NCBI GenBank assembly: GCA_030620255.1
Contig: JAUXFB010000020.1
Coordinates: 1 to 10,113 of the forward strand
Reading direction: 5' to 3'
DNA: 10,113 nucleotides
From: Candidatus Aminicenantota bacterium
GTDB taxonomy: Bacteria; Acidobacteriota; Aminicenantia; UBA2199
Below, piece by piece: positions 1 through 10,113 of this stretch (its first letter is position 1; each line of letters starts with the position of its first letter). The notes under the pieces were generated by a model. The model had not been told where the DNA came from. It made no database searches and saw only the letters and a list, made by a program, of their open reading frames with translations. Both the position numbers and the translations under genes were made by a program.

Positions 1-579
1 AAAAAAAGATGTGTCAACTGTATTAATAGCTATGAATATTTTTTCCGGATCAGCTCCCAAATTTATTAGATATTCCTTTGCTTTTGTCCCATAAGCGATA
101 AATCCATATGCTCTTCTGATTAATATCTTTCTGTATATTCTTCTTAAGAATGAATCTTTTCTCCCTTTTGTTATTATAGAACCTGACCAAATAATTATAG
201 GAGTCTTATTCCAAAATGATCTAATCCATAATTTTAATGTACCAAAAGAAAAACCTATAATTATAATCTTATCAGGTTGTTCTTGTCTTAAAGTTTTTAA
301 TAATCCTTTGTATGTAAAAAATGTTTTTTCGGAGTTTCCAAAATTGATCTTAAGTGAATTCAAAATTCGATATTCAAATTTACAATCATTTATGTTAAGA
401 ATAAATTTTCTCCTTTTATAACCTTTAGCTCCAAAAATTATTTTTAATTTAATTTGTTTTTTTTCAAGTTGTCTATTTAATTCATTAAATAAAGGTATCC
501 TATAAGGATTCGGGATATTTGTTATTAAAATGATTCTTTTTATTTTTCTCTTTTTTACTTTTTTCTTTATAATATCCAT
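1..579 (-). CDS. GT4-type glycosyltransferase, N-terminal part (cut by left edge)
   Basis: The reading frame opens with ATG at 579 and stays open for 193 codons to the window edge, so only the N-terminal domain is seen. The start is a basic stretch (MDIIKKKVKKRKIKR) followed by a hydrophobic strand and ITNIPNPYRIPLFNEL at about residues 18-33, the usual opening of the acceptor-binding Rossmann domain in GT4-like (GT-B fold) enzymes. Later come a strand PDKIIIIGFSFG (about 101-112), then IIIWSGS (about 126-132), and a GAxxEKIFIAINTVD-like segment (about 176-190) that normally precedes the nucleotide-sugar-binding domain. The ATG lies inside the end of the asparagine synthase homologue (13-base overlap, different frame) and has no clear Shine-Dalgarno sequence, so coupled translation is likely. 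Predicted cytoplasmic or membrane-peripheral sugar transferase; donor and acceptor cannot be told. Confidence 0.85.
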   Translation of the reverse strand, partial: MDIIKKKVKKRKIKRIILITNIPNPYRIPLFNELNRQLEKKQIKLKIIFGAKGYKRRKFILNINDCKFEYRILNSLKINFGNSEKTFFTYKGLLKTLRQEQPDKIIIIGFSFGTLKLWIRSFWNKTPIIIWSGSIITKGRKDSFLRRIYRKILIRRAYGFIAYGTKAKEYLINLGADPEKIFIAINTVDTSFF

Positions 580-2468
580 TTTTTAAACCAGTTCATTAAA
601 AAATAAAGAGTCCATAAATTATTAGTATATTTACTCTTTCCTCTATTAAATAATTCCTTTTGTGTTTTTAGTTCATTATAATCAAAAATATTTGTCTCCT
701 GACAAAATTTCTTTAGATTCTTATCAATATAATCATATAATATATCTCCTGCCCACTCCTTCAAAGGGACACAAAATCCCATTTTTTTTCTATAAAGAAT
801 AGAATCTGGTAATACTCTCCTTAAGGAGTTCTTTAAAATTGCTTTAGGCTCATTATTCACAATTTTAAATTTAGATGGAATAGAAAGGGCAAGATTGACA
901 AATTCATGATCCATAAATGGTGAACGTGTTTCAACTGAATTAGCCATCCCAAGACGATCTGATCTAAAAAGAAAAAAATTTGGCAATACAAATTTAAATC
1001 CGAGAAAACACATCCAATCAATATATGTTACTTGTCTATTTAAATTAAGTTTTTCAAAGCTTTTTCGATATGTACAGATTGTATCATGAGTATTTGAAAA
1101 TTTATTGCGTTCTAAAAAATTTCTATTAAATATTCTTTTCTTGGTTCCTTCTTTGAAACTATTTGCGCTACCCCAGAAAAATTCATGGTTTTTGGATGCT
1201 CGTATCAGCATCTCATGGTTTGGCGAGTTGTTGTTGAAAATCCCATATATACTTTTGATTATCTCTTTGAAAAATCTAGGTGACTTGGAATAGGTTTTGT
1301 AATAAGGGTATAGTTTAATATATCTCAGCCAGTTTCTATAACCTGCAAAAAGTTCATCTCCTCCATCTCCTGTCATTACAACTTTTGTCCCATTTTCCTT
1401 TGCCAATTTAGATATAAAATAAATAGGAATGGCTGTAGCATCAGATAATGGTTCATCAAAAATTTCAATAATTTTAGGTAAAAACTCACGGATATCCTCT
1501 GGGGTTATAAACCTTTCATAATGTTGAGTATTAAAAGTTTTAGAAATTGTTCGAGCATATTCAAGCTCTGTATAACCCGGCATATCTTTGAACCCAATCG
1601 AGAAGGTTTTTATTTTTTTATTTGTGTTTTTTTGCATTAGAGCAACTATTGCACTTGAATCAACACCTCCACTAAGGAATGCACCAACAGGGACATCACT
1701 TACCATTCTATATTTCACAGATCTGCTCAAACCCGAAAAAACCAGTTCTTCAATTTCTTTTTCATTATATTTCTCAAAATTTTTGTAATCAAGCTCCCAA
1801 AAAGGGGCATATTCTTTGATTCCATTTTTATCAACTGTCATTTTATAACCAGGATGAAATTTATGAATATTTTTAAACATTGTTTTTGGGGGTGGAAGTT
1901 TTCCAAAAGTAAGAAAATCATATAAAGCCTCTTCATCCAATTTCGGTTTTATCCATGGTAAATTGAATAACGATTTTATCTCTGAGGAAAATGCAAAAAT
2001 GCCATTTATTTCAGTATAATATAGAGGTTTCTGGCCCGCCCTATCTCTGGCAAGAAAAAGCTCGCTTTTTTCTTTATCCCATATTGCAAAGGCAAACATA
2101 CCATTACAATATCCCAAACACTCTTGCCCAAATTTTTCATATAAAGCTAATAAAACCTCTGTGTCACTTTGGGAAGAGAATTCGTATTCCTTGAGAAGTT
2201 TTCTCTTGATTTCAATAAAGTTGTAAATTTCACCATTAAAAACAATAGCATTACCTCTATTACTTTTCATTGGCTGACTTCCGGACTTTGAAAGGTCAAT
2301 AATACTTAATCTCTGATGACCAAAATAAATTCTGTTCTGATTATTAATCCAAGTCCCGCTAGCATCCGGGCCTCTGTGATGTATAGCTTTATTCATTTCC
2401 CGGATCAATTCCGTTGGATTTGTTGATGCTTTAGAGGAATTATCAAAAAAACCGTTTATTCCACACAT
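567..2468 (-). CDS. asnB: Asparagine synthase (glutamine-hydrolysing) homologue
   Basis: A 633-residue two-domain protein, normal for the AsnB family. The N-terminal class II glutamine amidotransferase domain starts MCGI, with Cys2 as the nucleophile exposed after Met removal; RLSIIDLS (53-60), FNGEIYN (77-83) and SDTE (101-104) are its glutamine-pocket motifs. The C-terminal synthetase domain has the ATP pyrophosphatase loop SGGVDSS (266-272) and GDGGDELFAGY (367-377), followed by the family signature around RSDRLGMANSVETRSPFMD. All key residues are present, so it should release ammonia from glutamine and transfer it to an adenylylated carboxylate. Start: ATG at 2468 shares one base with the upstream stop (TAATG), with GAGGA six bases before it. 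In polysaccharide clusters such homologues are often credited with amidating uronic-acid sugars; that is inference here, because no UDP-sugar dehydrogenase is visible. Housekeeping asparagine synthesis remains possible. Confidence 0.93.
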   Translation of the reverse strand: MCGINGFFDNSSKASTNPTELIREMNKAIHHRGPDASGTWINNQNRIYFGHQRLSIIDLSKSGSQPMKSNRGNAIVFNGEIYNFIEIKRKLLKEYEFSSQSDTEVLLALYEKFGQECLGYCNGMFAFAIWDKEKSELFLARDRAGQKPLYYTEINGIFAFSSEIKSLFNLPWIKPKLDEEALYDFLTFGKLPPPKTMFKNIHKFHPGYKMTVDKNGIKEYAPFWELDYKNFEKYNEKEIEELVFSGLSRSVKYRMVSDVPVGAFLSGGVDSSAIVALMQKNTNKKIKTFSIGFKDMPGYTELEYARTISKTFNTQHYERFITPEDIREFLPKIIEIFDEPLSDATAIPIYFISKLAKENGTKVVMTGDGGDELFAGYRNWLRYIKLYPYYKTYSKSPRFFKEIIKSIYGIFNNNSPNHEMLIRASKNHEFFWGSANSFKEGTKKRIFNRNFLERNKFSNTHDTICTYRKSFEKLNLNRQVTYIDWMCFLGFKFVLPNFFLFRSDRLGMANSVETRSPFMDHEFVNLALSIPSKFKIVNNEPKAILKNSLRRVLPDSILYRKKMGFCVPLKEWAGDILYDYIDKNLKKFCQETNIFDYNELKTQKELFNRGKSKYTNNLWTLYFLMNWFKKWIL

Positions 2469-3478
2469 TAGATTTCCTCAATAAGATTGATCCACTCATT
2501 TTTGAAATACTCATGATTAAACTTACAAGCAAACTCATAACCTCTTTCTCCTATTGCCTCCTTATCTTTCAGGCAATGTTTAACTAAATCGGGCAACTCT
2601 TCCCTAGAAGTACAGATTTTTTGCCTCCCTCCTTCAAGTAGTTCTCTCATCCCCCCTGAACCTGATCCAATAATAGGTTTCTTTAATAGCATCGCTTCAT
2701 GAGCAATTCTGTTCCAACCTTCAAGCATCCTGGACATTGTTATTACAAGATCACAGCTTTTTAATAAACAGAGATAATCCTCCCTATTCAGATTGAAAAA
2801 TCTTACTGGAAGATCCTTAGCTTTATTTGTTGAACCAGTCATAACAAGATCATATTCATAATCTTTTAAAGCATTGTATACCTCATAAACTCCCTTTTCA
2901 CGTGAAGAATTTCCGATATAAATCAGTGGTTTAGAATCCTCTAAATTATATTTTCTTCGAAATAATACAGTTTTATTCTCGGAAATTTCAAATTCTCTAG
3001 TGTCAAAGGAATTGTAAATGACTTTCACATTTTTGCACCCGATTTCATGAAGATATTTTTTCCAGAACTTTGATACTGTCACAACTAAATCCTGTTTTGC
3101 TAGGAGTTTTTCTAATCGTTTAAAATACCATTTATGTTTTATAGAATTTCTCTTTAAATCAAAATCGATATGATGAATCATTGCTATACTGAAGTTAGTA
3201 TTTTTTCTCCATGAAAATACAATTGGATAGGGTTCTCTTATAAATATATCTTGATTAGGTCTTTTAGTTCTTAATTTTAGCCAATATTTAAATAGATTAT
3301 CATTTTCTTTCTTTACAGATTTCTGATCAACTTCAACTTTGATATCATTGCAGGTATCGAGTGCAAATAGTGCTAGAATATCGTAGATATTACCGCCATT
3401 TGCTCGTTTTGAGATTTCTTTTTTCTGAAAAGAATCAAAAACGATTTGAGATTTAGTTTGCCATAATATTGTTCTCAT
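2468..3478 (-). CDS. GT4 family glycosyltransferase
   Basis: A 336-residue GT-B type enzyme, slightly short for GT4. The N-terminal half carries a His-containing strand AMIHHIDFD (99-107) and the inter-domain segment VVTVSKFWKKYL...VKVIYNSFDTREF (about 132-163). The C-terminal donor-binding domain shows PLIYIGNSSREKGVYEV (184-200), with the R/K pair that contacts the nucleotide diphosphate, then DLVMTGS, then the EX7E motif E253-G-W-N-R-I-A-H-E261, and KKPIIGSGSGGMRELL (266-281). It therefore looks catalytically complete and retaining; the sugar is unknown. The ATG at 3478 follows the methyltransferase-like gene by 21 bases and has only a poor purine-rich Shine-Dalgarno sequence; its end is coupled (TAATG) to the asparagine synthase homologue. 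Probably acts on the cytoplasmic face of the inner membrane during repeat-unit assembly. Confidence 0.9.
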   Translation of the reverse strand: MRTILWQTKSQIVFDSFQKKEISKRANGGNIYDILALFALDTCNDIKVEVDQKSVKKENDNLFKYWLKLRTKRPNQDIFIREPYPIVFSWRKNTNFSIAMIHHIDFDLKRNSIKHKWYFKRLEKLLAKQDLVVTVSKFWKKYLHEIGCKNVKVIYNSFDTREFEISENKTVLFRRKYNLEDSKPLIYIGNSSREKGVYEVYNALKDYEYDLVMTGSTNKAKDLPVRFFNLNREDYLCLLKSCDLVITMSRMLEGWNRIAHEAMLLKKPIIGSGSGGMRELLEGGRQKICTSREELPDLVKHCLKDKEAIGERGYEFACKFNHEYFKNEWINLIEEI

Positions 3479-3499: not shown

Positions 3500-4141
3500 T
3501 TACTTTAATTTAATTTTTATTAACCCTTCTTTCCCAGTGTCTAAAACCCTAAATGAATATTTGTTTTTGTTCTTATTCAAATACTCCAGAACTTCAACAC
3601 CTTTTCCATTATTTAGAATATCATGACAATAAATTACACCATTTTGTGATAAATATTTTTCTAGCACTAAAAATTCAGCCAGTGCGGACCCTTTACGAGA
3701 ATCAATAAACGCAATATCAATCAGCTCCTTATTTAGTGTTTTTATTAAATTTCTTAAAATATCCTGTGGACCGGAATAATTTTTAAGTTCATCAAATGCG
3801 GGGGAGGTTGTTTCTTCTCTGCTTACACTCAATCCATGTAGTGCTCTAAATTGAGAAAAATTTCTAAACTTACTATTTGCCATGTCACAATTTTTTTTAT
3901 AGATATCGATCGTAAAGAATTTACATAGTGAAGACTTTGATATTAAATAATTAAATATTTTTTCAGCAGAGATCCCCTTTCCGGTTCCTATTTCAACGAA
4001 AATTTTTGGCTTTATCTCGTCAATTGAACTTAGAATTTCTAAATAATCACCTTCACTTATAGGACCTGGATTAGAGAAGTAGTCTTTTCTTAAAACAGAT
4101 ATGATCTTTTTTATCTTTTTTTTAACTCTTTTAATAATCAT
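3500..4141 (-). CDS. Class I SAM-methyltransferase-like protein (Methyltransf_24 type)
   Basis: A 213-residue protein from the chosen start. A strongly basic N-terminus (MIIKRVKKKIKKI) precedes a Rossmann-like core. Motif I is FVEIGTGKG (about 48-56) for SAM binding; TIDIY (about 77-81) carries the acidic residue after strand 2; IAFIDSRKG (about 143-151) and NGVIYCHDI (about 167-175) match the FIDg...GGvivihD pattern typical of the Methyltransf_24 group, in which the Asp residues often bind a metal. Such proteins in glycan clusters usually O-methylate a sugar or resemble cephalosporin-hydroxylase-type enzymes, so the substrate is open. An upstream in-frame ATG at 4165 gives 221 residues, but the ATG at 4141 has AAGGAG six bases before it and is preferred. 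It is the first gene after the largest gap in the window. Confidence 0.72.
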   Translation of the reverse strand: MIIKRVKKKIKKIISVLRKDYFSNPGPISEGDYLEILSSIDEIKPKIFVEIGTGKGISAEKIFNYLISKSSLCKFFTIDIYKKNCDMANSKFRNFSQFRALHGLSVSREETTSPAFDELKNYSGPQDILRNLIKTLNKELIDIAFIDSRKGSALAEFLVLEKYLSQNGVIYCHDILNNGKGVEVLEYLNKNKNKYSFRVLDTGKEGLIKIKLK

Positions 4142-4147
4142 TTCAAT

Positions 4148-4153
4148 CTCCTT
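4148..4153 (-). promoter_or_regulatory. Shine-Dalgarno sequence that decides the methyltransferase start
   Basis: On the minus strand AAGGAG (4153 to 4148) is followed by ATTGAA and then ATG at 4141, an ideal six-base spacing. The upstream in-frame ATGs at 4165 and 4159 have only A-rich leaders, and the AAGGAG would lie inside the coding region if either were used. This favours the shorter protein. Confidence 0.75.
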
Positions 4154-4291
4154 TTTCATTGTCATTTTTGATATGTGTATCTTTTTTTCTCATTTCTTCT
4201 TTGTGAGTTTTAAAAGTCAATATTATCTTTTTTGTATTTTATCTAAGTATAGATCTTAATGAGATTATTAAAAGTAATCATTCTTGATATT

Positions 4292-5284
4292 TTAGTTAAT
4301 TTTAAAAATGTTTAATGATGATCTTAGCGGACAAAAGAGAGGGAGATTTTTTTTATTATAATCAGAACTCCTTTTTTCATAATCCAGTTTCTCTCTTAAT
4401 ATTTTATGTTTATTTATGTTACTAATTGGTAAAAAGAAATTAAATCTATTGAAATTATTATTTAGGTTATAATACCTTTTTCCTAATATTTGAGCCGGTT
4501 TTCCTGGCAGAGTAAACCCGGAGTGTTCAAATCCAAAATCTTTTTTATTTAAAAACCATACATTTTTTGTTGAAGTATATTTATCTGCGATTTCAAAATA
4601 AAATTCCATTTTATCTGATAATAATATTTTTTTTAAAAATATTTCCAATTCCTTATGAAAATCAATGACCCATAATTGAAGATTTTTTTTGTCATATTTT
4701 TTGGAAAACCAATTGATTCTTATATCAATACATTCATTCACAAGATCAAATAATTTCCCTTCAGATACTTTCAGGAATTTAAGATCAAATAAAAGAGCTT
4801 TCACTTCCAGTAAGATAGATCTCAATTTAACAACTCCGTAGGTAATTTGAATTGATAAAGTCTGATACATTTTTATTAAATATTCCAATGCGATCTGTTG
4901 CTTTAAAATTTCAATTTCTTCTTTTGAAATATTGCTTTTCCCAATCTTGAAATCCTTCCCAAATAACTTGTTAAAACCATGGAAAAAAGTAAATTTTTGT
5001 GATTCAGTAAATTGTGAAGAAGATAATCCAAACAGATTGTGAATAAACAAATATTTTTCTTTTTTAGAGAGCCCTTCTCGTGGATCCTGAAGGCACATTG
5101 CATCATCACCAAAGATCACAAGCATATCTATATCGGATATCCCGGGATCACTAACACTACCGAGTTGGAAAATTGATAAAACTCCGGGAATATATTTTAG
5201 CTTTTCTACCATCCTTGATATTGCCCTTTCATATTCTTCAAGAGGGATGAATTTCGGATGATCAATAAATGTTAATTTTTTCAT
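4292..5284 (-). CDS. Nucleotidyltransferase-fold protein A (downstream of a tandem pair)
   Basis: A 330-residue protein of no named family that I recognise. Residues 39-58 hold the Pol beta superfamily signature: LGS (41-43), then S50-D51-I52-D53, i.e. hGS...DhD, where the two Asp residues normally bind metal and NTP. A mainly helical middle part follows (about 120-225), including CIDIRINWF (185-193), and then an unusual aromatic/Asn-rich tail with YYNLNNNFNRFNFF (271-284). The third catalytic carboxylate is not evident: where protein B has an Asp after strand 4, this protein shows FIHNLFG (80-86). It may thus be a weak or non-catalytic partner. Its ATG overlaps the stop of gene B as ATGA and lacks a clear Shine-Dalgarno sequence, so it is probably made by re-initiation alongside B. 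No signal peptide or membrane segment is seen. Possible roles, all inferred: nucleotidyl transfer to a sugar or lipid, or an accessory subunit. Confidence 0.75.
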   Translation of the reverse strand: MKKLTFIDHPKFIPLEEYERAISRMVEKLKYIPGVLSIFQLGSVSDPGISDIDMLVIFGDDAMCLQDPREGLSKKEKYLFIHNLFGLSSSQFTESQKFTFFHGFNKLFGKDFKIGKSNISKEEIEILKQQIALEYLIKMYQTLSIQITYGVVKLRSILLEVKALLFDLKFLKVSEGKLFDLVNECIDIRINWFSKKYDKKNLQLWVIDFHKELEIFLKKILLSDKMEFYFEIADKYTSTKNVWFLNKKDFGFEHSGFTLPGKPAQILGKRYYNLNNNFNRFNFFLPISNINKHKILREKLDYEKRSSDYNKKNLPLFCPLRSSLNIFKIN

Positions 5285-6342
5285 ATTTTGTCAGACATTA
5301 TTTTACACAGCTCTTTGATCCTGTTATAAAATTCCGGCTTAAGTTTGTTTTTTATATCATTTGGGATCTTTGGAGAAAAATATCTTGTAATCAACTTCCT
5401 ATAAGCAGGATTGGTTATTGTAAATAATTTTTTTTTGATGGGATTCATTTTATAGTGCCAATTTTCTCTTATCTCAGAAATCTCATCCATTATTTCCCAA
5501 TCTTCCTCTGAAAAATCTTTTTTAGCCATATCAAAACTATATTTTTTATATACACTTTTTTTATCTCTTGCCTGAACATAGAGGGCAGGAAGGAGCATAA
5601 ATTGGCTTAATATCCCTTTCAGTTGATATACGTTTTTTGGAATCCTTCCTAATTCAATTTGTTTTATTATCGAATTGGTCAGATCAAAAAAGGGTTTCTT
5701 ATAGTCCTGATCTTCCGGATTAAAATAGATCTTTAATTTTGACCCTTTTTCCGGGAATATAGATCTTGCATATTCAAATAATTCATGCGGGAAATAGGTT
5801 TGAGGATAATTTTTTAGATCATTCTCTGTTAAAATAAACCATCCGTGATGCTGCAAAGGATCCATCTCATACATAATCTTTTTTGCTTTAATAAGTTTTA
5901 ATGCAACTTGTGATAATCTTTTTGTATTTTCAAATACTTCATCTTTTATAATTACCAATGCATCAAAATCGCTATACGGTATCTCTTCATATGTTCCAAG
6001 ACTACCATGGACATAAGCTCCGAGCAAATCATCACTTAAATTCAAATCCAAGTAGTGTATCATTCTCTTAACCTGGGATGTTTCTCCGTTATATTGTGTG
6101 ATACTCAATGTAATTTTCTGTGAGTCAGACTCATTGCTAAACTCAGATATATTTTTAAAATGTTTTATTATTCTCTCTGAATTTTTTTTAAAAACATATT
6201 GAGGAGCTAACAATGAGATTAATAAATCCATTTTATTAAGATAGCCATTTGATAAAAATTTTATTAGATATTTTCGAATTCTATTATCAGGATCCATTAG
6301 GTCTTCAATTTGCATTTGATTATGAAATAAACATTTTTTCAC
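5281..6342 (-). CDS. Nucleotidyltransferase-fold protein B (upstream of a tandem pair)
   Basis: A 353-residue protein with an N-terminal extension of about 100 residues, then a Pol beta-type nucleotidyltransferase core: YVHGSLG (110-116) and YSDFDALVII (123-132) form the GS...DxD signature, and MYEMDPLQHHGW (157-168) supplies a plausible third carboxylate, D161. The core looks catalytically competent. A helical C-terminal half includes YQLKGILSQF (239-248) and EISEIRENWHYK (287-298); IRENW matches IRINW in protein A, so the two are probably distant paralogues. The start is uncertain: GTG at 6342 has no Shine-Dalgarno sequence, the next in-frame ATG is at codon 10, and the frame is also open back to the TGA of the upstream glycosyltransferase. 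The 3' end overlaps gene A by ATGA. Cytoplasmic by sequence. The substrate is unknown; it resembles neither sugar-1-phosphate nucleotidyltransferases (no GxGxR motif) nor the LicD signature. Confidence 0.78.
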   Translation of the reverse strand: MKKCLFHNQMQIEDLMDPDNRIRKYLIKFLSNGYLNKMDLLISLLAPQYVFKKNSERIIKHFKNISEFSNESDSQKITLSITQYNGETSQVKRMIHYLDLNLSDDLLGAYVHGSLGTYEEIPYSDFDALVIIKDEVFENTKRLSQVALKLIKAKKIMYEMDPLQHHGWFILTENDLKNYPQTYFPHELFEYARSIFPEKGSKLKIYFNPEDQDYKKPFFDLTNSIIKQIELGRIPKNVYQLKGILSQFMLLPALYVQARDKKSVYKKYSFDMAKKDFSEEDWEIMDEISEIRENWHYKMNPIKKKLFTITNPAYRKLITRYFSPKIPNDIKNKLKPEFYNRIKELCKIMSDKI

Positions 6343-6363: not shown

Positions 6364-7533
6364 TCAGATCAACTTAATAAAATCTGATATACCTTTATAC
6401 GATTTTGAATATGTATTTTTTTTCGCAAATTTAAGGCTTTTCTCTGATTTTCTTGAAGCCTCAATAGTATCATTAAGAATATATTTTATTTTTTCACTTA
6501 ATAATTTCGGTTTATCGGGAGGAACAAAAAAAGCCATATCTTCAGAAAAAATCTCTCTTGTTGATGGGAGATCTGCAAATATTATTGGCTTCCCGGCACA
6601 CACATAAACACCTGCTTTGGCTGAAGCTCTTTGGTTAACAGACAATTTATCGTCAGTATCATAGTAACTAAGAAGTATATCAGCACAGGATACATATTTA
6701 AAAAATCTATCAAGTGGTTGAAAACCATAAAATTTGACATTTCTTAAATTTTGCTTACTGAGAATCTCGTAAAAACAGCTCTTGAAATCATCCTTTAATC
6801 CCACAAAAATAAATTTGACTTCAGGAATGTTTTTTGCAGCTTCGAGAATATAATGTATTTCTTTCATTTTTGGGCTTATTTTTCCAGTATACATGGCAAT
6901 TGAATCCGATCGACTTAAACCCAATTCAGTTCTATAGTTTTTCCCGGAAATTATTACTTTTGAAAAATCTTCAAATTGAGATGGAAAGTTTGCTTTATAA
7001 ATTTTTCGTTCAGGAATACCATATGATTTCAAGTATTTTAATTTTATATAATTATTAAAAACAACTATGCCATCATTATTTAAAGCATTGAATCTATGAC
7101 TCCATTTATGTTCAACAAATGCTGCAGCCTCAAAAAATATTTTACTACGTAAAATTCTAACCTTTTTCAGTAATATTGCAGGTAATATACTTATATAACA
7201 TTTTGAATAAAGGATTGAATTTTTATTGAGGTTCTTAAACAACAACAAATAAATATAATATCCCAAGAAGAAAGCAAATTTCTGGAATCTTACGATAATT
7301 GAAGGTGTTTCATCTTTTAAATATGTAGAAAGCTCAACGATTTTAAAATTCTTATCTAAATTATATAGAGACCATATTTCTTTTTTTTTTACATTTTCCT
7401 TTCTTGATACTCTAGGTGTTACTAAAGTGACATCAAATCCATTCTTGGAAAACTCATTGCAAGATTTCATAATATGAACAGGATCTGCCCTGTTTTTTCT
7501 AACATCTCTCGGGGATATATAATATAATCTCAT
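6364..7533 (-). CDS. GT4-like glycosyltransferase with altered donor-site motif
   Basis: A 389-residue GT-B fold protein. The N-terminus (MRLYYISPRDVRKNRADPVH, then GFDVTLVTPR at 32-41) is typical of the acceptor domain; a hydrophobic patch FAFFLGYYIYLLLF (86-99) suggests membrane contact. The C-terminal domain has IAMYTGKISPKMKEIHYILEAA in pieces (212-233), VKFIFVGL (239-246), VKFYGFQPLDRFFKYVSCADILLSYY (266-291, in pieces) and GKPIIFADLPSTREI (314-328). Where relatives read KLFEYMAAGKP, this one reads KAGVYVCAGKP (306-316), so the Glu that usually ends the EX7E motif appears to be Val. It may still be active, since this Glu varies among GT4 subgroups. The start at 7533 has AGG nine bases upstream; 21 bases separate the stop from the next GTG start. 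Donor and linkage are unknown. Confidence 0.86.
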   Translation of the reverse strand: MRLYYISPRDVRKNRADPVHIMKSCNEFSKNGFDVTLVTPRVSRKENVKKKEIWSLYNLDKNFKIVELSTYLKDETPSIIVRFQKFAFFLGYYIYLLLFKNLNKNSILYSKCYISILPAILLKKVRILRSKIFFEAAAFVEHKWSHRFNALNNDGIVVFNNYIKLKYLKSYGIPERKIYKANFPSQFEDFSKVIISGKNYRTELGLSRSDSIAMYTGKISPKMKEIHYILEAAKNIPEVKFIFVGLKDDFKSCFYEILSKQNLRNVKFYGFQPLDRFFKYVSCADILLSYYDTDDKLSVNQRASAKAGVYVCAGKPIIFADLPSTREIFSEDMAFFVPPDKPKLLSEKIKYILNDTIEASRKSEKSLKFAKKNTYSKSYKGISDFIKLI

Positions 7534-7555: not shown

Positions 7556-7699
7556 TTAATCATTAATAGCAAAAATATTTTTAAATATTTATTTCAGTAA
7601 TCCAAATGCTATAGCAATTTTTATATATTTTACATGATTATATGTAATCATATAAACACTTACAAATAGCAGGTTGGCTGTTAAATCATTAAAACTCAT
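7556..7699 (-). pseudogene. Remnant of a GT2 (GT-A) glycosyltransferase N-terminus
   Basis: The 150-base gap after the acyltransferase gene holds a decayed reading frame. From an ATG at 7699 it encodes 36 residues ending in TAA at 7589, and contains VSVYMITYNHVKYIKIAI (residues 13-30). This closely matches the first strand and helix of family 2 glycosyltransferases (consensus of the type vSVcmiTYNHekyIeeAI), in which this strand binds the UDP moiety. After the stop the same frame continues IFKNIFAIND, which resembles the FkyEIvIgeD segment expected next, then ends at TAA (7558-7556). Everything downstream (DxD motif, acceptor domain) is absent because the next glycosyltransferase gene begins. 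It was probably a full gene once coupled to the acyltransferase, then deleted. A chance match is unlikely but cannot be excluded without a search. Confidence 0.62.
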
Positions 7700-8234
7700 A
7701 TTTTAATAGATCCCTTTTCCTTTCTTTATAAAATCTAACAGGTACACCAACATTTATTGTCCAAGGATCAAGATTTTTATTTACCAAAGTCATTGCCCCT
7801 GTCACAGCTCCTTCATCAATTGTTATATTTGGCATTACGATAGAACCTGAACCTATTTGAACATACTTTTTTAAATGAACTTTACCACCAATGACACTAA
7901 TACATTCTTTAGGTAATAGCGGTCCTATCATAAATTCCCCACTAAAATCATCAGTAGCACTAAAAACTGTAACTCTGGGTGATAAGCCTGAATAGTCATC
8001 CATTACAATTCCTTTTGTTCCATACATAGCAACATATGCCGAAATATGTATATATGATCCTAAAGTAATTTCACCTGAAAGAATAGCAAAATCATCAATT
8101 CTAACATTATTGCCAATCGAAATTCCTGATGGATTATAAAAACTTGCTTTTCTACTAATTTGTATATTTTCTCCAATAGATTTAAATCCTATTTTTAATA
8201 TCTCATCTGAATTTAAAAACGAATTATTACTCAT
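7689..8234 (-). CDS. Hexapeptide-repeat (left-handed beta-helix) sugar acyltransferase
   Basis: A 181-residue protein made of imperfect hexapeptide turns, e.g. ISIGNNVRIDDFAILSGE (38-55, in triplets of I/V-G-x), ITLGSYIHISAY (56-67), then VHLKKYVQIGSGSIVMPN (119-136) and ITIDEGAVTGAM (137-148), ending in the GVPVRFYK cap common in the family (163-170). An insert around FSATDDFSGEFMIGPLLP (91-108) is the loop that shapes the active site in WbbJ/xapAT-type acyltransferases. Members work as trimers and move acetyl or another acyl group from a CoA thioester to a sugar hydroxyl or amine. Directly after the aminotransferase (ATGA overlap), N-acylation of the new amino sugar is the simplest role, as VioB follows VioA; this is inference. 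ATG at 8234 is backed by AAGGAG five bases upstream. Confidence 0.88.
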   Translation of the reverse strand: MSNNSFLNSDEILKIGFKSIGENIQISRKASFYNPSGISIGNNVRIDDFAILSGEITLGSYIHISAYVAMYGTKGIVMDDYSGLSPRVTVFSATDDFSGEFMIGPLLPKECISVIGGKVHLKKYVQIGSGSIVMPNITIDEGAVTGAMTLVNKNLDPWTINVGVPVRFYKERKRDLLKYEF

Positions 8235-9346
8235 TGATACTCCTTTATTATTTTAACTATTTTATTTAAATCATTACTTTCCAATCCCGGATAAATTGGC
8301 AAACATAGAATCTGCTGGCTGACTCTGAAAGCAACAGGCAAGTTGTCCGAATGGGCTGATTCCATTCCCCGGTAAGTTGGGAATTCACTAATCAGGGGAT
8401 AAAAATATTTTCTGACATATATGTTTTTTTCCTTAAAAATATTATAAAGTTCATCTCTAGAATTTCTATATTCCTCTTTATTCACAAGAATTGGAAAATA
8501 AGAATAATTATGCTTCACTCCTTCTATTTCAGGAAGAACTGTAATCCCATTTATATTATTCAATTCCTTTCTATAATAATCTGCAATTTTTTTTCTTCCT
8601 GCAATCTCCTTATTTATATGTTTTAATTGAAGCAATCCTAATGCTGCTTGAAATTCATTCATTTTTGCATTAATTCCAGGTCCAACTACAGTAACTTCAC
8701 CTGCAAAACCAAAATTTTTAAGAAAATCAATGCGTTTCTTCATTTTCTCATTTTTTGATATGATCGCACCACCCTCAAAAGTATTAAAAACCTTTGTTGC
8801 ATGGAAACTCAAAATTGACAAATCACCATGATTAAGAATTGTTTTTCCATTCTTTTTTACACCAAAAGCATGTGCAGCATCATAAATAACCCTTAAACCA
8901 TAAATATCTGCAATTTTCTCTATTTTTCCCATATTGCATGGATTCCCATAAACGTGGACAGGCAGAATAGCAGTGGTCTGTGGAGTGATGTGAGATTCGA
9001 TCTTTTCAGAATCCAGGTTCATTGTTTCTGGTTCTATATCACAAAATACCGGCTTTATTCCATTCCAATTTAAAGCATGAGTAGTAGCAACAAAACTAAA
9101 TGGTGTTGTAATAACTTCACCTGTTATTTTTAAAGCTTGAAGTGCAGTTACTAGAGCAAGAGTTCCATTTGCAAAAACTGAAATGTGCTTCACTCCAAGA
9201 TAATCACATAAAGCTTTTTCAAACTTCTGATGAAATGGTCCATTATTAGTTAGCCATTTACTCTCCCAGATTTGTTCAAGATAAGGTATGAATTCTTTTA
9301 AGGGAGGTAATGATGGTTCTGTTACATAAATTTTTTTATCATTCAT
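8231..9346 (-). CDS. DegT/DnrJ/EryC1/StrS sugar aminotransferase, VioA-like
   Basis: A 371-residue PLP-dependent fold-type I enzyme of normal length. It has ANGTLALVTALQAL (59-72) for phosphate binding, TTPFSFVATTHAL (80-92), VIYDAAHAFGV (153-163) with the PLP-pyridine Asp156, and LSFHATKVFNTFEGGAI (179-195) with the Schiff-base Lys185. The C-terminal part has PGINAKMNEFQAALGLLQL (223-241, in pieces), the usual substrate-loop region. The opening PSLPPLKEFIPYLEQIWESKWLTNNGP (11-37, in pieces) and overall wording resemble VioA, which makes dTDP-4-amino-4,6-dideoxyglucose from the 4-keto sugar with glutamate as amino donor; that specificity is likely but unproven. ATG at 9346 directly abuts the flippase stop (TAA-ATG) with GGAG eight bases upstream. 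No dTDP-glucose synthesis genes are in view. Confidence 0.93.
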   Translation of the reverse strand: MNDKKIYVTEPSLPPLKEFIPYLEQIWESKWLTNNGPFHQKFEKALCDYLGVKHISVFANGTLALVTALQALKITGEVITTPFSFVATTHALNWNGIKPVFCDIEPETMNLDSEKIESHITPQTTAILPVHVYGNPCNMGKIEKIADIYGLRVIYDAAHAFGVKKNGKTILNHGDLSILSFHATKVFNTFEGGAIISKNEKMKKRIDFLKNFGFAGEVTVVGPGINAKMNEFQAALGLLQLKHINKEIAGRKKIADYYRKELNNINGITVLPEIEGVKHNYSYFPILVNKEEYRNSRDELYNIFKEKNIYVRKYFYPLISEFPTYRGMESAHSDNLPVAFRVSQQILCLPIYPGLESNDLNKIVKIIKEYQ

Positions 9347-10113
9347 TTAAATATCTCCGTTAAGATATAATTGTGATAATTTTTTATTTGAATAATATAT
9401 AAAAAATGCAGTTATTATAAGTTTTGAAGATAATAATCCTATTGCTGCTCCAGTTGCTCCATGTATTGGAATTAAGAGAATTGAAACTGTAAATCCAATT
9501 ATTATTGCATAAAAAGTAAACTTTAATCTTAATTGAGCCATCCCTAAACTTAATACCAGATAAAGTATCCAAAAGAAAACAACATTAATTACAGCTCCAA
9601 AAACCAAAAAAACAAATGGAGAAGAAGCATTGCTGTATTCAACTCCAAATAAAAATTCAATAATTGTTTTTCTAAATATAAATGTGGAAACTAAAAATAT
9701 TGATGCGGGAATTGATAATACTCCTGTTATCTTCTTCAACATTTTTTTTATTTCTACAATTTTCTTCTCCGAAACTAAGATTGATAATTGAGGGAAAATA
9801 GCTCCACCGAGTGGATCAGTGAGTAGTAAAATTGAATTTGCTAATTTTTTTGCTATTGAATAATACCCTACTGCTAATGGTCCTGCCATGGCTCCTAACA
9901 ATAAAATATCTCCCCTGTTCATTATAGTCTGAATAGTTTTGCTGACAGAATTATTTAGTGTAAAATTGATGATCTTTTTAAGGTCATCATATATAACTTT
10001 TATACGAATATTTTTTGTTCCTGAAAATTTTTTCTTGAGCTCCAGATAAGCAACAGAATTACATATAACACTATTGATCAATCGAGCAAAAATAACTGCG
10101 AAAAAAAAGGCCC
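9347..10113 (-). CDS. wzx: Wzx-like polysaccharide flippase, C-terminal part (cut by right edge)
   Basis: The frame is open from the right edge to TAA at 9347, giving 254 visible residues, about the C-terminal half of a MOP/Polysacc_synt family transporter. There is no true start in view; an internal TTG at 10081 should not be taken as one, because ten further codons (AFFFAVIFAR) continue upstream. RGDILLLGAMAGPLAVGYYS (66-85) matches the conserved Wzx segment (rxDxxllGxxxGxxavGyYs). Further hydrophobic segments lie near 130-148, 165-189, 198-214 and 218-240, separated by short basic loops (KKIVEIKKMLKK), as expected for a multi-pass inner-membrane protein. Predicted to flip the undecaprenyl-linked repeat unit to the periplasmic side. 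The next gene starts at once after its stop. Confidence 0.9.
   Translation of the reverse strand, partial: AFFFAVIFARLINSVICNSVAYLELKKKFSGTKNIRIKVIYDDLKKIINFTLNNSVSKTIQTIMNRGDILLLGAMAGPLAVGYYSIAKKLANSILLLTDPLGGAIFPQLSILVSEKKIVEIKKMLKKITGVLSIPASIFLVSTFIFRKTIIEFLFGVEYSNASSPFVFLVFGAVINVVFFWILYLVLSLGMAQLRLKFTFYAIIIGFTVSILLIPIHGATGAAIGLLSSKLIITAFFIYYSNKKLSQLYLNGDI

Follow-up and report, generated by a model that had tools for sequence, protein, structure and literature searches.

The 10,113-nt stretch analysed here (the window) comes from a Candidatus Aminicenantota bacterium and carries two adjacent genes, A (4292..5284, minus strand) and B (5281..6342, minus strand), which represent a real and widespread pair of distantly related nucleotidyltransferase (NTase)-fold proteins found in bacteria and some archaea. 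Our preferred explanation, in which we place somewhat less than even confidence, is that the two products form a heteromer, with B as the catalytic and A as a degenerate subunit, that modifies a glycan component with a nucleotidyl group or another group linked through phosphate. The fold and superfamily are already known, and the paired, partly fused glycan-locus family has no name in the searched profile libraries beyond generic NTase models. We found no description of the A-B pair in literature listings and abstract openings, a scope that leaves out most subscription papers, so that absence from print is not established.

Both open reading frames (ORFs) lie on the minus strand and are joined, as the original prediction described, by an ATGA at 5281..5284 that holds the stop of B and the start of A. 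A encodes 330 aa from an ATG. The start of B is uncertain within window positions 6315-6342: a GTG at 6342 gives 353 aa, and 344 aa result if translation begins nine codons later, at an in-frame ATG (6315). A database copy of B (P0040) uses the ATG start (344 aa), and the first 16 residues are of low confidence in the predicted structure. The genome, which is 77% complete in 325 contigs, holds a single copy of each gene. The GS...DxD signatures attributed to the two proteins are present, in B as HGS...SDFD at residues 112-127 (HGS 112-114, SDFD 124-127; minus strand, 5962..6009) and in A as LGS...SDID at residues 41-53 (LGS 41-43, SDID 50-53; minus strand, 5126..5164). In 20,000 residue shuffles this pattern arose by chance in 153 for A and 101 for B, and the IRxNW motif, located at B residues 291-295 (IRENW; minus strand, 5458..5472) and A residues 188-192 (IRINW; minus strand, 4709..4723), arose in 15 and 11, respectively.

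Structure prediction bears out a nucleotidyltransferase core followed by a helical domain in both proteins, with stronger support for the core in B than in A; neither predicted structure lacks it. The B model has an AadA-like NTase domain and a HEPN-like helical domain. Searches of Pfam, NCBIfam, PHROGs and PADLOC gave nothing at E≤1 for window A, and the matches of window B all fall below cut-off (Polbeta, E 0.0028; NTP_transf_2, E 0.006; PADLOC PDC-S09, E 0.001). The NTP_transf_2 cut-off is passed by the distant B-type proteins of L034 and L052 and by the fusion in L046, and two B relatives among those listed carry a precomputed PF18765 assignment. NTP_transf_5 (PF14907) is linked to polysaccharide loci, and neither A nor B matches this Pfam model at E≤1. 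A sequence search of solved structures returned none for A and a best E of only 0.05 for B; among the listed structural neighbours are aminoglycoside nucleotidyltransferases (ANTs) that use nucleoside triphosphates (NTPs).

Conservation was read from two distant-reaching alignments that extend to archaea, A3 with 36 A rows and A4 with 34 B rows, and from the close-family alignments A1 and A2. Residues G113, S114, S124, D125, D127, D161, H166 and K266 (minus strand, 5545..5547) are kept in 34/34 B rows, followed by H165 and R292 (32/34) and W295 (28/34). Invariant in A (36/36) are Y18, G42, G48, S50, D51 and D53, with R189 in 35/36 and W192 in 31/36; H82 (minus strand, 5039..5041) is a histidine in 29/36 rows and Ser43 is present in only 14/36, so that the P-loop serine is absent from A in 22/36. 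The NTase motif hG[GS]...Dh[DE]h thus lies on the core in B (34/34) and, with the exception of Ser43, in A (G42, D51 and D53, 36/36). The supposed common IRxNW motif stands for its R and W, which are invariant in the close rows (37/37 A, 37/37 B), but not for its N, which is not conserved. D161 of B opens the DPLQHHG block (residues 161-167; minus strand, 5842..5862) and is a candidate third acid; it is invariant, but is positioned before the modelled core strand, to which the HH pair lies closer. Residues 79-87 of A, around H82, contain no conserved acid, no column there being acidic in more than 7/36 rows.

Homology of A and B becomes visible only at a distance. Comparison of the A1 and A2 profiles gave a probability of 1.2% (E 0.043), and distant members were needed for a clear alignment: the NTase domains of A3 and A4 aligned with a probability of 94% (E 1.4e-7, a single comparison), placing A H82 opposite B H166. 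The helical domains alone aligned in local hhalign with E 4.6e-5 and a probability of 69% over 30 columns with the IRxxW motifs in register, and in global hhalign with E 0.002 and a probability of 6%, the motif likewise aligned. These alignments of both domains support the old duplication that had been suggested, and duplication of a two-domain protein would be the simplest reading of the sequence relationship.

We surveyed the pairing from the side of A: a pattern scan limited to one genome for each species yielded 57 loci (not exhaustive), in which B was found by hidden Markov model (HMM). Far from rarely co-occurring, the two are found together in 53/57 loci. They are adjacent on one strand in 28, with B first in 27 and A first in L053; within this class the two frames of L059 overlap by 706 nt, perhaps through a frameshift. 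Another 16 loci have both on one strand with 741-2398 nt between B and A (the B of L022 is a fragment at the sequence end), five loci, all archaeal (L039, L040, L048, L049, L052), have them convergent on opposite strands with overlapping 3' ends and no operon, and four have them fused. B is missing from L010, L047, L035 and L036, with A lying 2 kb (L010) and 0.3 kb (L047) from the contig end. A whole-genome B search in 42 of the 57 genomes gave strong matches (E<1e-30) in 38, only weak ones in G480 and none in G455, G469 and G470. G469 has three A-like genes and no detected B. L035:7642-15088 holds three A-like genes at one locus, one of them fused to a GT4 glycosyltransferase, in a genome with B undetected. 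At L043:1413-2360, B and A are separated by an extra gene that groups with the A family in BLAST comparisons and is unmatched by the A HMM.

The distribution of the pair is sporadic. Among 100 relatives, A occurs in two and B in the same two, the window's own genome and G021. Across 396 genomes of the phylum, at E≤0.001, A matches 3 and B matches 17; strong B is found in G000, G151 and G370 and strong A in G000 and G151, while 14 of the 17 B matches (E 6e-9 to 9e-4) were classed as other NTases, being short and weak, without one-by-one inspection. The third A match, a weak one in G158 (L066:1357-2314), belongs to an MNT-like gene (MNT, minimal nucleotidyltransferase): by eye, a 182-aa NTase ORF has a 143-aa ORF behind it, an arrangement resembling an MNT-HEPN toxin-antitoxin pair. 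The 829-aa ORF of G370 is a B-A fusion, with B at 175-377 (iE 2.4e-39) and A at 478-663 (iE 1.2e-6), and its A segment alone scores 18.5 bits, whereas 200 shuffles reached -3.5 at best. In 219 genomes of the family of the L005 genome, full A or B was found only in the centre itself, with 3 of 4 B matches likewise classed as other NTases because short and weak. Leaving aside the window's own genome and the centre genomes, three genomes with full-length B were found without conditioning on A (G021, G151, G370), and all three have A, fused to B in one.

A protein collection, covering the best 120 of 511 B and the best 120 of at least 386 A plus 39 A from another listing, gave the same association: 25 of 61 listed B contigs of at least 5 kb have an A entry on a contig of equal size, versus a mean of 0.08 and a maximum of 1 in a shifted-size control. 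The 25/61 is a lower bound, since the window, L025 and L026 are among the 36 unmatched B contigs and yet have A. Across 49 loci, distances within A and within B show a correlation of 0.865, against a maximum of 0.193 in permutations. Neighbouring families track the pair less closely than its members track each other: A-B correlation is 0.846 versus 0.729 with A and 0.586 with B for the Wzy-like cluster (n=28), 0.807 versus 0.625 and 0.417 for the AsnB cluster (n=24), and 0.904 versus 0.863 and 0.760 for the ADH/MocA cluster (n=16). The A-B correlation reflects joint inheritance, not contact.

Glycan genes are present in 54/57 of the loci reached through A, a raw count with no random-stretch background rate beside it, and the pair was thus not found to lie mainly outside glycan loci. 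Neighbour clusters, named from Pfam matches of their representatives (the Wzy-like name rests on a below-cut-off match, E 0.0049), include GT4 in 47 of the 57 loci, Wzy-like in 29, AsnB in 25, ADH/MocA in 20, Wzx in 19, DegT in 17, Wzz/Wzc in 16, export in 15 and GT9 in 6. At least one glycosyltransferase, Wzx, Wzy-like, Wzz or export member occurs in 49/57; the other eight comprise L036, L045 and L046 with NeuB, L047 with GT4 and L037 with GT4 fused to B, which bring the total to 54, and L050, L053 and L055, which have no glycan gene among the neighbours scanned. For 24 distant loci, 121 of 145 listed neighbours were scanned, 24 being left out for their length or as redundant, including all those of L040 and L059, and the 121 include 22 glycosyltransferase group 1, 10 Methyltransf_11, 6 GT9, 6 B12-radical-SAM, 5 NeuB and 4 CTP_transf_3. 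A methyl- or sulfotransferase stands beside or between B and A in 22/57 loci. A cluster matching GINT1_N (the N-terminal domain of inositolphosphorylceramide glucosamine transferase) lies between B and A in 7/57 (L016, L022, L027, L028, L029, L031, L032), and L018:1683-3503 encodes a GT-A-type NTP_transferase domain fused to a class I/II aminotransferase, adjoined by a formyltransferase-domain gene.

This context bears on two other explanations. An NTase fold inside sugar loci, with NeuB and CTP_transf_3 genes close to some of the distant members, could mean that the pair makes a nucleoside diphosphate-activated sugar or polyol in place of a classical GT-A-type pyrophosphorylase, but the neighbouring sugar pathways vary from locus to locus and a classical cytidylyltransferase is already present in some loci, and we regard this as distinctly improbable. 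The presence of glycan genes in nearly all loci also argues against a minimal-NTase/HEPN toxin-antitoxin or defence module that sits in glycan loci by chance. MNT-HEPN pairs have related domain folds but consist of two separate one-domain proteins, whereas A and B each carry both domains in one chain, as in AadA. HEPN ribonucleases have a conserved Arg-x(4-6)-His spacing; in B the residue after R292..W295 varies and is not a conserved His. Nor did searches of plasmid and phage records and of viral contigs find B, and we give a toxin-antitoxin role hardly any credence.

Replacement by B-A of the initiating sugar-phosphate transferase was set aside, as PF02397 enzymes are present in 22/22 genomes searched. 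In 6 of these 22 a PF02397 enzyme that lacks the first ~30 profile positions (the membrane part), preceded by a long N-terminal stretch without Pfam match, is found on the B contig, 9-28 kb from B (L106:4141-5247, L107:4561-5667, L108:2134-4122, L109:4027-5208, L110:2848-4344, L111:3199-4398).

Closest in architecture are AadA, ANT(9) and ANT(4''), which likewise have an N-terminal NTase domain and a C-terminal helical bundle. According to PMC6065190 and PMC4631478, Asp47, Asp49 and Glu87 of AadA bind Mg, with Glu87 as the base, and Ser36, Ser46, Arg192, Lys205 and Tyr231 bind phosphate. B appears to have counterparts, by kind and order, of both Ser and both Asp, and perhaps, in the invariant K266 of its helical domain, of Lys205. 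Unlike these enzymes, B has a degenerate paralogue as its partner in all or nearly all cases, occurs in a glycan context and has the invariant DxxxHH block, and it scores 22.2 bits against the NCBIfam ANT_9 cut-off of 340 (A has no match). In the heteromer that we favour, an AadA-like two-domain nucleotidyltransferase would have been duplicated to give B and A, the two subunits of one surface-glycan synthesis enzyme. Nucleotide and Mg2+ would be bound in B by S114, S124, D125 and D127 together with the D161-xxx-HH166 block and probably K266. The acceptor would be a hydroxyl or phosphate on a glycan building block or on a lipid-linked oligosaccharide, to which B would pass a nucleotidyl group or another group linked through phosphate. 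In A, the degenerate paralogue, SDxD and R189/W192 are retained, and this subunit would complete the site or recognise the acceptor.

The original prediction of a heteromeric or sequential enzyme survives in its first half, since the A-B fusions make a heteromer likely. Two equivalent or sequential enzymes fit less well than one active and one degenerate subunit, because A is without the P-loop serine in most rows and without a conserved third acid. Active sites of KNTase and LinB are formed between two subunits (PMC4631478), which makes a composite B-A site with B catalytic plausible by analogy. Tam41 is reported to be functional with just one of three acids (PMC11646218), so that the degeneracy of A is no proof of inactivity.

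The glutamine synthetase adenylyltransferase/removase GlnE also has two homologous NTase-plus-helical units as a pair, and A-B is sometimes fused too. A pair acting in this way would have as its target a protein encoded in the locus, such as a glycosyltransferase: B would add a nucleotidyl group, and A would remove or sense it. A and B differ from GlnE in standing in glycan loci, in having one degenerate unit and in matching no GlnE or GlnD Pfam profile at E≤1; the lack of a conserved third acid in A and of a single partner protein in all loci further leads us to consider such regulation improbable.

LicD had originally been set against the NTase fold, an opposition that does not hold, as LicD is itself a subgroup of the NTase superfamily (PMC11666461); that the LicD Pfam profile is unmatched by A and B at E≤1 did stand. 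LicD and fukutin-related phosphotransferases share with A-B a place in glycan assembly and, by the same source, use cytidine diphosphate (CDP) conjugates in glycan loci. The pair could thus take a CDP-alcohol or similar donor and add a phospho-polyol, leaving no nucleotide on the product. Hints in this direction are few: L009, L015, L017 and L018 have a glycerol-3-phosphate dehydrogenase two genes upstream of B, and L018 has the NTP_transferase/aminotransferase fusion. No common CDP-alcohol gene is found across loci. A and B also differ from LicD in their AadA-type helical domain and their pairing. We think this chemistry unlikely and prefer AadA-like nucleotidylation because the nearest structures and the residue set of B are those of NTP users.

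In the window the same-strand gene order (all on the minus strand) is a Wzx-type flippase cut by the window end (9347..10111), a DegT/DnrJ/EryC1 aminotransferase (8231..9346), a hexapeptide-repeat acyltransferase (7689..8234), a GT4 glycosyltransferase directly upstream of B (6364..7533), B, A, a Methyltransf_24 protein directly downstream of A (3500..4165), a second GT4 glycosyltransferase (2468..3478), an AsnB-type amidotransferase (567..2468) and a glycosyltransferase-like gene cut by the window end (1..579; Glyco_transf_4 just under cut-off). In L006, L019 and L020 a member of the cluster of the Methyltransf_24 protein (c37) separates B from A.

A broader proposal, which we put forward as doubtful, is that bacteria and archaea have in common an undescribed two-subunit class in which an active AadA-like subunit and its degenerate paralogue together modify surface glycans or their precursors with a nucleotidyl group or another phosphate-linked one, DxxxHH replacing the usual strand-borne third acid. 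If true, the antibiotic adenylyltransferases would have a counterpart that acts on glycans. In bacteria and archaea alike, the pair marks a step in the synthesis of surface polymers that is unnamed in present profile libraries. Should the product carry a nucleotide or another phosphate-linked group, it would represent a new way of decorating or activating glycans and an AadA-type setting beyond drug resistance.
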